Virus record (IMG/VR): IMGVR_UViG_3300008448_000697 | Span: 1 to 22,919 of that record | Length of the DNA stretch: 22,919 nucleotides | Origin: a virus | Reading direction: 5' to 3' (one strand) | Shown here: piece by piece, positions 17,912 through 20,337 of the stretch | Layout: each line of letters begins with the position of its first letter | Numbering within the stretch: the stretch's first letter is position 1 | Position numbers and translations under genes: made by a program | The notes under the pieces: model-generated | The model's input: only the letters and a program-made list of their open reading frames with translations | Databases searched by the model: none | What the model was told of the DNA's origin: nothing

Positions 17912-18685
17912 ATGGCTAAGACCGAAATTGCAGCACAACAGGCCAGCACTGCACTGGCAATCATGAGCGACCTGGAGCAAGACGCAGGCGCGGGCTTTGA
18001 CGGCATGACCCAAGAGGACTATGCGCTGCCCTTCTTGCGACTGCTTACCAACGTCAGCCCAGAAGTGGGCGAAATTGACGGCGCACTGCCCGGCATGCTG
18101 CTCAACAGCGTGACAGGCGAGCTGTTTGACGGCAAGCGCGGTATCACCGTTGTGCCATGCGCCTATGTGCGCCAGTACATTGAGTGGGCACCTCGCGGCC
18201 AAGGCAGCGGCGCACCTGTGCACATCTACCCTGCTACCAGCGACATCCTGTCCCAGACCCACAAGGAACCTGGCGACAACAAGGACTACCTGGACAACGG
18301 CAACTACATCGAGAACACTGCGAACTACTACGTGATGATCATCAGCGACGCGGGCACTCCCGAACCTGCTTTGATCACCATGAAGTCCACGCAGCTCAAG
18401 AAGAGCCGCAAGTGGAATTCCATGATGCAGTCTGTCAAAGTGCAGGGCAAGAACGGCCTGTTCACGCCCCCTATGTACAGCCAGCTGTACAAGCTGACTA
18501 CCGTGGCCGAGTCTAACGACAAGGGCAAGTGGTTTGGCTGGGAAGTCGAGCGCACTGGCCCTGTGGAGTCCACAGACATTTACAATGCCGCTAAATCATT
18601 TGCGCAATCAGTCGGCGCGGGTGACGTGAAAGTGAAGCACGAAAGCGAAACTGGTGCGGCTGGCAATAACGCTGCACCGTTCTGA
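17912..18685 (+). CDS. Candidate single-strand DNA-binding protein
   Basis: AAGGA precedes the ATG. The 257-residue product has an N-terminal segment ending in GFDGMTQEDYALPFLRLLTN and a mixed beta core with GITVVPCAYVRQYIEWAPRG (about 77-96) and TANYYVMIISDAG. Lysine-rich strands follow (KSTQLKKSRKWNSMM), as well as FTPPMYSQLYKLTTV and WFGWEVERTG. It ends in a disordered tail terminating Ala-Ala-Pro-Phe. Many SSBs end in a Pro-Phe that docks partner proteins, though here the tail has little acidic charge. The beta core with scattered aromatic and basic residues, plus the place between a Gp157-like gene and a primase, support a gp2.5-like SSB role. I have no diagnostic motif for an OB fold, so this is a moderate inference. 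It could instead be another conserved replication accessory protein. Confidence 0.5.
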   Translation: MAKTEIAAQQASTALAIMSDLEQDAGAGFDGMTQEDYALPFLRLLTNVSPEVGEIDGALPGMLLNSVTGELFDGKRGITVVPCAYVRQYIEWAPRGQGSGAPVHIYPATSDILSQTHKEPGDNKDYLDNGNYIENTANYYVMIISDAGTPEPALITMKSTQLKKSRKWNSMMQSVKVQGKNGLFTPPMYSQLYKLTTVAESNDKGKWFGWEVERTGPVESTDIYNAAKSFAQSVGAGDVKVKHESETGAAGNNAAPF

Positions 18686-18702
18686 TTTTCGGGGCCGAAA
18701 AT
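18685..18702 (+). other. Inverted repeat at the SSB-candidate stop codon
   Basis: ATTTTCGG and CCGAAAAT form a perfect 8-base inverted repeat with two bases between; its first base is the last base of the TGA. A stem with a GGGG-centred loop is possible. No run of T follows, so it is not a standard terminator; it may be a processing or stability element. Confidence 0.5.
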
Positions 18703-18808
18703 GTTCGGGAGACTGATAGTTGATGCACGCCAGGTAGCTCCTGGCGGGCAGTCTACGGGTACCCCTTCCGGCTTGAGTAGGCCCCACCTCACTAGAAAGA
18801 AGAAATGA
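18701..18808 (+). CDS. Possible 35-aa ORF between SSB candidate and primase
   Basis: An ATG at 18701 opens a frame that ends in a TGA overlapping the primase start (ATGA at 18805-18808), the same junction used elsewhere in this genome. The peptide starts MFGRLIVDARQVAPGGQSTG and ends in HLTRKKK. Against it, there is no good Shine-Dalgarno, and codons such as AGA, AGG and ATA are unlike the neighbouring genes. The same bases also hold strong RNA stems. It is either a tiny coupled gene or a chance frame through a structured RNA. Confidence 0.3.
   Translation: MFGRLIVDARQVAPGGQSTGTPSGLSRPHLTRKKK
18707..18785 (+). ncRNA. Structured intergenic RNA element (unclassified)
   Basis: Several complementary pairs nest in this gap. 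CGCCAGG (18728-18734) pairs with CCTGGCG (18740-18746) around the loop TAGCT. AGACTG (18710-18715) and CAGTCT (18749-18754) enclose it. GGGTACCC (18758-18765) is self-complementary. GGGGCC (18691-18696) could pair with GGCCCC (18780-18785) around the whole. The nested exact pairs are more than one expects by chance in so short a gap. No tRNA features, ribozyme core or T-tract are seen. Possible roles are leader regulation of primase translation, RNA processing or a small RNA; none is proved. Confidence 0.35.
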
Positions 18809-20337
18809 CTGACATCACTCGGTTCAAGGCGATTTTTTCCGGCCTGGACATCGCTTATGGAACATACAAAATTGAGTCATCCCGTGGAGACGGAAAACAG
18901 GCAGGCAAGGCCGTCGTGGTGCGCAAGCCACCGACTGACGACTTGTGGGTCAAACACCTTGAAGGCGCTGAGCCGAGTCTGGGAATTATCCCGATCCGGG
19001 CGGATAACTCCTGTATCTGGGGCTGTATTGACATTGACCAGTATCCACTGGACCACACGGGACTGATCAAGAAGGTCCGCAGCCTGGAGCTGCCGATGGT
19101 GGTGTGCCGCAGCAAGTCTGGTGGCGCACACGTCTTCCTCTTCACCAAAGAGCCGATCCCCGCTGGTGAGATGCAGCGGTTCCTCAAAGCCTGTGCTGCC
19201 CTGCTGGGCGAAGCGGGTCGCGAGATATTCCCCAAGCAAGCTGAGATTTTGGTCGACCGTGGCGACACGGGCAACTTTCTGAACCTGCCGTACTTTGGCG
19301 GGGACATGTCCACCCGGTACGCCATCAAGGATGATGGCTCGGCCGCAACCCTCGAAGAGTTCTACGCGCTCTACGACCAGTGGGTCCAAGGTCCCGATCT
19401 GAAATTCCCCGAAGAGCCCAAAGCGCCTGATCACCCGATCAAGGATGGCCCGCCCTGCTTGCAGGCACTGTGCGCCCAAGGCGTGCCCGAAGGCACCCGC
19501 AACAACGCGCTCTTCAACATCGGCATCTACCTCAAGAAGGTCATCCCCATCCACTGGGACGACGCACTGGTGGAGCACAACCTCAAGTACGTTTCCCCGC
19601 CGCTGCCCAACAACGAGGTGCAAATCCTGGTCAAGCAGTTGCACAAGAAAGATTACCGCTACAAGTGCAAGGACGCCCCGCTCAACAGCTTTTGCAACAG
19701 CGGCCTTTGCAGGACACGCAAACACGGGATCGGGGCCCACGGGCCTGACTCCCCGCAGATGTCCTCGCTGTCCAAGTACAACTCCGAGCCGCCGCTCTGG
19801 TTCTTGGACATCAACGGCAAGCGCATAGAGCTGGACACAGAAAGCCTCTTTGCCCAAGCAGCATTCCAAAAGGCCTGCGTCGAGAAGCTCAACCTGCTGC
19901 CGCCCACGCTGCGCAAGCAGGACTGGGAGCTGATGCTCAACGCGCTGCTCAAGGAAATGGTCGAGACCGAGCAGATCACCGAGGCGTCCGAAGACACCAG
20001 CATCACTGGGCGCTTCACGGACATGCTGGAAGAGTTCTGCACACACCTGCAGCAAGCCATGGATCGCGACGAAATCCTCATGGGCCGCCCTTGGACGGAT
20101 GACGAAGAGGCCAAGACCTACTTCCGCATGAAGGACCTGGAAGCGCACCTGCTGCGCAACAACTTCAAGGGCATGACCCATCCCAAGATGGCGCAGCGCC
20201 TGCGCGACATGGGTGGCGAGCCCATATCACTGTTCCTCAAGGGCCGCACTGCCCGCTGCTGGCGCATCCCGCGCTTCAGCCGTCAAGACGCCCCGTTTGA
20301 TACGCCCGAGCAACGAACCCAAGGGAGCCCATTCTGA
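18805..20337 (+). CDS. Archaeo-eukaryotic-type primase (AEP superfamily, TOTE-like) with zinc motif
   Basis: The 510-residue product has the AEP active-site order. The acidic pair D76/D78 lies in WGCIDIDQY, H109 in SKSGGAHVFLF (103-113), and there is a third motif around GDTGNFLNLPYFGG (153-166). These residues bind metal and nucleotide for primer or short-chain synthesis. A region with GVPEGTRNNALFNIGIYLKK (226-245) resembles the helical linker of primases. C288, C297, C302 and H307 form a likely zinc site. A possible winged-helix end is seen at about 440-495 (LRDMGGEP ... RCWRIPRFS). No helicase domain is fused. The ATG at 18805 is preceded by AGAAAGAAGAA, and the stop overlaps the next gene by one base. 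It should initiate DNA synthesis for the downstream family A polymerase. Other AEP types are possible, but not DnaG. Confidence 0.87.
   Translation: MTDITRFKAIFSGLDIAYGTYKIESSRGDGKQAGKAVVVRKPPTDDLWVKHLEGAEPSLGIIPIRADNSCIWGCIDIDQYPLDHTGLIKKVRSLELPMVVCRSKSGGAHVFLFTKEPIPAGEMQRFLKACAALLGEAGREIFPKQAEILVDRGDTGNFLNLPYFGGDMSTRYAIKDDGSAATLEEFYALYDQWVQGPDLKFPEEPKAPDHPIKDGPPCLQALCAQGVPEGTRNNALFNIGIYLKKVIPIHWDDALVEHNLKYVSPPLPNNEVQILVKQLHKKDYRYKCKDAPLNSFCNSGLCRTRKHGIGAHGPDSPQMSSLSKYNSEPPLWFLDINGKRIELDTESLFAQAAFQKACVEKLNLLPPTLRKQDWELMLNALLKEMVETEQITEASEDTSITGRFTDMLEEFCTHLQQAMDRDEILMGRPWTDDEEAKTYFRMKDLEAHLLRNNFKGMTHPKMAQRLRDMGGEPISLFLKGRTARCWRIPRFSRQDAPFDTPEQRTQGSPF

Follow-up and report, generated by a model that had tools for sequence, protein, structure and literature searches.

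The 119-nt gap that separates the gp34-like gene from the primase gene (18686-18804) is, we conclude with high confidence, a structured RNA on the + strand, composed of an outer stem (P1), an internal loop of the sarcin-ricin type and a tip (P2, P3 and a probable pseudoknot), and it represents, at the primase locus, a hitherto undescribed family of phage RNAs in which the base is conserved and the tip is exchanged. The window, i.e. the whole stretch of DNA analysed, is a virus record of 22.9 kb whose phage has DSL-LC04 as a relative (~71% across the region). Its rightward unit consists of gp32-like, gp33-like and gp34-like (257 aa) genes, the gap, the primase, a small gene, a UvrD-like helicase and a polymerase. 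The initial annotation had singled out the gap as the largest of this unit, and it is indeed the only sizeable one, the other junctions being 17 nt long or overlapping.

The RNA at the primase locus

The gp34-like protein encoded upstream of the gap ends in ...AAPF*, resembling an SSB tip; every listed gp34-like relative has a C-terminal F, and nearly all have -PF. Its predicted fold weakly matches viral SSBs, while comparison with solved structures gave 0 sequence matches and only insignificant PDB fold matches. The protein is probably a phage ssDNA-binding protein. Its homologue in DSL-LC04 is annotated as an ATP-binding protein. The parts of the RNA and the flanking genes are listed in Table 1.

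Table 1. Features of the gap and its neighbours in the window
Feature	Position	Strand	Details
gp34-like gene upstream of the gap	17912-18685	+	257 aa, Pam3 gp34-like; PF23977 1.4e-67, PHROG 2402
P1, 5' strand	18691-18696	+	GGGGCC; starts 5 nt past the stop codon
Sarcin-ricin-like internal loop, 5' side	18697-18700	+	GAAA; 55/66 distinct gaps alignable
P2, 5' strand (type A tip)	18701-18710	+	10 pairs, 5 changed on both sides, 20 relatives
35-codon frame	18701-18808	+	rejected as a gene; codon-selection tests, frame comparison
AGUU, candidate pseudoknot with P3 loop	18718-18721	+	98.8% of cells paired
P3 hairpin, 5' strand	18728-18734	+	compensatory changes in 6/8 pairs counted
P3 loop	18735-18739	+	UAGCU; conserved in type A alignment
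P3 hairpin, 3' strand	18740-18746	+	covariation in relatives
Conserved palindrome of type A	18757-18764	+	GGGUACCC (GGGCGCCC in one relative); alignment
P2, 3' strand	18765-18774	+	covariation in relatives
Sarcin-ricin-like loop, 3' side	18775-18779	+	GAGUA, core AGUA; 55 gaps
P1, 3' strand	18780-18785	+	GGCCCC, then ACC; ends 19 nt ahead of the primase start
Primase, AEP type	18805-20337	+	PHROG 21866 1.2e-95, PF22548 2e-13

Folding of the window sequence by itself was unexceptional (-45.1 kcal/mol, z = -1.62, with 13 of 200 shuffles equally good), and significance was therefore drawn from relatives. These were gathered via primase homology, which yielded 80 viral contigs with 66 distinct gaps of 43-240 nt between the gp34-like gene and the primase, nearly always with a hairpin inside. 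A stem of at least 4 bp closes onto GAA ... AGTA in 44 of the 66 gaps, against 0.5% of shuffled gaps, and 55 could be aligned as (G)(A)(A)(A) opposite (N)(A)(G)(U)(A) when small deviations were allowed. Because the gaps were collected by protein homology, without an RNA pattern, the search itself cannot have produced the GAA/AGUA loop. Across the 55 alignable gaps, the 5' side was conserved as G in 52, A in 55, A in 51 and A in 51, and the 3' side as A in 50, G in 50, U in 55 and A in 55, preceded by G (38), A (10), C (4) or U (3). The sarcin-ricin consensus is AGUA opposite GAA. The loop of the window and the family resembles this module (also called bulged-G or loop E) in these bases and in the variable neighbouring pair, the module being known for a bulged G that is conserved and, beside its core, a non-Watson-Crick pair that varies (PMC8450098). 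Judged by sequence, the internal loop would thus be a sarcin-ricin/bulged-G module. The module is a building block found in many RNAs rather than a functional family, in which it differs from the window RNA.

The spacing around the hairpin was also conserved, mostly 4-8 nt from the stop codon to P1 and 16-22 nt from P1 to the start codon in nearly all gaps, regardless of the length of the tip. The long-range GGGGCC/GGCCCC pairing reported in the initial annotation is P1, which relatives keep: it occurs in 31 of the 44 gaps with GAA/AGTA, with very different tips among them.

Twenty sequences carry the tip of the window (type A). P1 is invariant among these and is neutral as evidence there; in P2 and P3, 11 pairs were altered on both sides, compared with 7.1 in shuffles, and none of 500 shuffles was as good. 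The covariation score was 0.322 versus 0.156, and slid controls reached at most 0.114. Aligning the gap in related phages, the check proposed at the outset, thus gave compensatory changes that support an RNA, and the excess of G-U over A-C pairs (16:3, and 77:12 in type A) points to the + strand acting as RNA. P2 had been overlooked in the initial annotation; it is weak in the window and has strong support in relatives. The hairpin CGCCAGG-TAGCT-CCTGGCG had been recognized, and it lies inside 11-nt arms (18724-18750) and is preserved in relatives via compensatory change; the self-complementary GGGTACCC likewise proved nearly invariant. Two other repeats, the 8-nt inverted repeat ATTTTCGG/CCGAAAAT (18685-18702) and the enclosing stem AGACTG/CAGTCT (18710-18715/18749-18754), are present as described but lost in most relatives, and look like chance features. 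A pseudoknot between AGUU and AGCU of the P3 loop is plausible, with little variation across the alignment: AGUU becomes AGCU in two relatives (L035/L036) and is otherwise mostly invariant.

Plain GC hairpins occupy the site in some phages, and given these a strong hairpin may be enough at the primase locus. Four gaps (L007, L008, L015 and L016) have another structured tip, of 151-152 nt, whose GGGGGACAC/GTGTCCCCC stem lacks the GAA/AGUA loop, and two gaps of 240 nt (L070 and L074) each hold two family hairpins in tandem.

The initial annotation had offered a structured RNA or a micropeptide as readings of the gap. The RNA part is borne out by the covariation, the conserved loop and further copies elsewhere, and a regulatory role for it is what we infer; the micropeptide part fell. 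The 35-codon ATG frame exists, its ATGA overlap with the primase could suit translational coupling, and it is open with ATG or GTG in 119-nt relatives, where it stays open because the RNA keeps its length. However, its pN/pS was 0.90, compared with 0.158 for the adjacent primase (1.21 and 0.71 in the other two frames of the gap), and its variable columns were spread over the codon positions as 12/16/16, with no third-position excess. Values for the gp34 gene, computed on sequences without indel alignment, were excluded from this comparison. In addition, the frame is shifted in 120-nt gaps and missing from the other alleles at the locus (43-240 nt, with different tips). A translation-coupled micropeptide is therefore extremely improbable.

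Members of the family and exchange of their tips

The base of the RNA, GAAAGC...GCGAGUA inside a covarying P1, is shared by more than 100 viral contigs and by five named phages; in most of them the neighbouring genes are unrelated. A first pattern of this base found 54 contigs, about half of them away from gp34-like/primase genes. A second pattern, in which only the core GAAAGCGGATGC ... GCAGCGAGTA was fixed and the outer stem was free, found at least 120 viral stretches and 10 genome contigs. Over all loci there were 157 distinct instances, in which the first four positions of the outer stem were paired in 99, 97, 97 and 94%, using GC, CG, UA, AU and UG pairs, and 82 aligned copies gave a covariation score of 0.459 versus 0.114. 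The 22 fixed core positions were excluded from the evidence because they are conserved by construction of the search.

A model built from the wider-family copies (R1) matched Alcaligenes phage CASP1, Bordetella phages IFTN6 and PHB04 and two Manatee Spring phages. The subtype to which the window belongs escaped R1, having another sequence in place of the inner loop GGAUG/RYGCA; the window's putative link to the family is drawn from the position and spacing, from P1 and the GAA/AGUA loop and from alleles of intermediate form at the primase locus. Each of 40 phage records searched whole had exactly one match, which ruled out a repeated regulatory site. In a Comamonas-centred family sample 5 of 301 genomes had the RNA, indicating that it is rare in hosts. 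Four of the 10 matches in the genome collection lacked the outer stem; some sit in a longer noncoding RNA-like region, and the other stemless ones may be chance matches. A longer noncoding stretch, conserved and close to tRNA genes, surrounds the core in PHB04, IFTN6 and some genome contigs (L365:3740-4340, L364:4000-4163, L359, L356 and L309); these share a GGTGGAACTCCGCGCCGGAGACGTAACCGGC hairpin in it, and it is possibly a larger undescribed RNA.

The tips were at least 85% identical in 34 pairs of copies, and in 28 of these both 150-nt flanks were near background similarity, with P1 differing in most of the 28; an identical 39-nt tip, for example, sits on P1 GGGT/GCCC in L268 and on GAGGC/GCCTC in L311. 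The primase locus reverses this pattern, with a constant P1 and changing tips. Taken together, a constant tip on changing P1 elsewhere and changing tips on a constant P1 at the primase locus point to an exchanged unit inside P1. We also observed a second hairpin family with the conserved base ACGCATGRGGA(TTG)...TCCYCAKYCGTGTTGG and variable tips, sometimes adjoining the first (L061, L067, L207, L248, L260, L284 with two copies, L314, L322 and L348). The tip TGTGGGTTCATCCACGA is common to both families, and in L284:1575-2260 about five different hairpins follow one another, the ACGCATG base being present in three of them.

Among 150 non-redundant copies, 107 have a codirectional gene end at most 25 nt upstream, compared with 19 antisense gene ends. 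The distance from the stop codon is most often 4-9 nt, and the next start follows after ~19 nt; P1 is usually followed by ACC, like a tRNA end minus its last A. Many upstream proteins end in SSB-like tips, e.g. DDDIPF, and their PHROG/Pfam matches include several ssDNA-binding families; one upstream protein matches Tad2-like (Thoeris anti-defence, 3.8e-26). Downstream are DNA polymerases, MazG-like enzymes and many proteins of no assigned family. Most copies have no adjacent promoter. Some copies with no gene upstream follow a promoter-like site directly (TTGACA-16-TATACT in L294 and TTGACG-16-TATAAT in L276) and start 6-8 nt past the -10 element, which would put the hairpin at the very start of the RNA. 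Only such clear cases were used, because -10-like hexamers were not significantly enriched in general (11 of 43 copies without an upstream gene versus 24 of 107 others). The copies of CASP1, IFTN6, L308 and PHB04 lie near tRNA genes.

Comparison with known RNAs

No Rfam 15 covariance model matched the RNA as a family. At E ≤ 5 the window gave one chance match and a canonical copy (L105) three, and six whole loci gave none at the gathering threshold. Searches covering the open literature found no description of the RNA. Among known systems, put of phage HK022 is an RNA-only antiterminator, with putL located just past the early promoter (PMC9378689). It resembles the RNA described here as a nascent phage RNA of ~70 nt that needs no phage protein, and putL is promoter-proximal like some copies; however, put has two stem-loops and conserved bases of its own. 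R1 found no match in HK022 24000-34000, and no GAA/AGUA hairpin was seen near the HK022 early promoters, so that by R1 and hairpin inspection the two do not appear homologous. The EAR/epsC RNA, an antitermination element (PMC2864571), is likewise a cis-acting RNA domain with the elongation complex as its presumed target, whereas no Rfam family matches the window RNA. GOLLD and ROOL are RNAs of phages and prophages, often near tRNA islands (PMC12286853), as are some copies here; these RNAs, however, are intricate and hundreds of nucleotides long, and their covariance models had no match in the regions scanned.

Possible function and rival explanations

We see about an even chance that the RNA acts in cis, on the replication-gene transcript to which it belongs, with the base as a platform for a host factor, since the RNA is common to unrelated phages that have no obvious gene in common. 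Cis action is supported by the spacing kept on both sides whatever the tip length and by the codirectional gene ends upstream. It is possible, though doubtful, that by analogy with put or EAR, with which no homology is implied, the RNA changes elongation to give full transcription downstream, i.e. processive antitermination. The RNA would fold while leaving RNA polymerase and would alter elongation, whereby the downstream replication genes, or untranslated tRNA/ncRNA stretches, would be fully transcribed. An effect on elongation is favoured because of the position, the low copy number and the lack of a shared phage protein, and is supported by the copies just past a -10 element, the position of putL, and by those beside tRNA genes. 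The whole explanation, a structured family RNA acting in cis by an antitermination-like mechanism, falls a little short of even chances in our view. Antitermination leaves the interchangeable tips unexplained. A decidedly speculative extension is a modular system in which a host-factor-binding platform (P1 and the sarcin-ricin loop) shows an exchangeable tip, one per phage and traded between unrelated phages and platforms, and the tip sets specificity, e.g. against a host defence or for a host partner.

Two other readings are serious rivals. The RNA could be an intercistronic hairpin serving mRNA processing, stability or translational insulation between the ssb-like and primase messages; as an insulator it would keep ribosomes finishing the first gene from disturbing initiation at the second. 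Its place exactly between stop codon and ribosome-binding site, at fixed spacing, would suit such a hairpin, as would its replacement by simple hairpins in some phages and the copies at a transcript 5' end, which could act as 5' stabilisers. However, simple protection does not call for a conserved internal loop, and a hairpin of that kind should be present several times in a genome, not once in each record; we consider this reading unlikely, though it deserves weight. A trans-acting small RNA or decoy, in which the base stabilises and the exchanged tip gives specificity by pairing with a target or binding a host or defence protein, would fit a single copy in very different gene contexts, with its own promoters in some phages. 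It would also fit the tip shared with the second hairpin family and the 85-100% identical tips on different P1 stems between unrelated flanks. Against this, most copies lie between genes at fixed spacing and have no 3' terminator nearby, which makes the reading rather improbable.

Very unlikely as the full account is a mobile or recombining DNA hairpin, with a GAAA-to-GAGTA unit moving between palindromic intergenic sites, or tips recombining in short conserved arms, and no necessary phage function. The reversal between constant tip and core on changing P1 and constant P1 with changing tips agrees with such movement, but the strand-specific loop sequence and the G-U bias disfavour a DNA-only element, and mobility would predict many copies per genome, not one. 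Movement as DNA is compatible with a function as RNA, and the two could coexist. An intrinsic terminator or attenuator between the ssb-like and primase genes is highly improbable. Like intrinsic terminators, the RNA is a GC-rich hairpin between genes, and a T-run comes after several of the simple alleles at the locus (L053 and L058); it differs from them in its conserved internal loop, and the U-run directly after the stem is missing in the window and most copies. No terminator was called in the window, and TTTT occurs within 15 nt in only 36 of the 150 copies.

That many otherwise unrelated phages carry this structured RNA, in a single copy per genome that often neighbours replication genes and without a counterpart in the RNA family library, suggests that they share a need which a host partner serves. 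Because tips are exchanged, the RNA can be approached directly, by comparing natural tip variants on one and the same platform. An action on transcription would make it a widespread member of the RNA-only antiterminators, a group with few known examples; should the tips instead work in trans, they would form a new class of phage specificity element.
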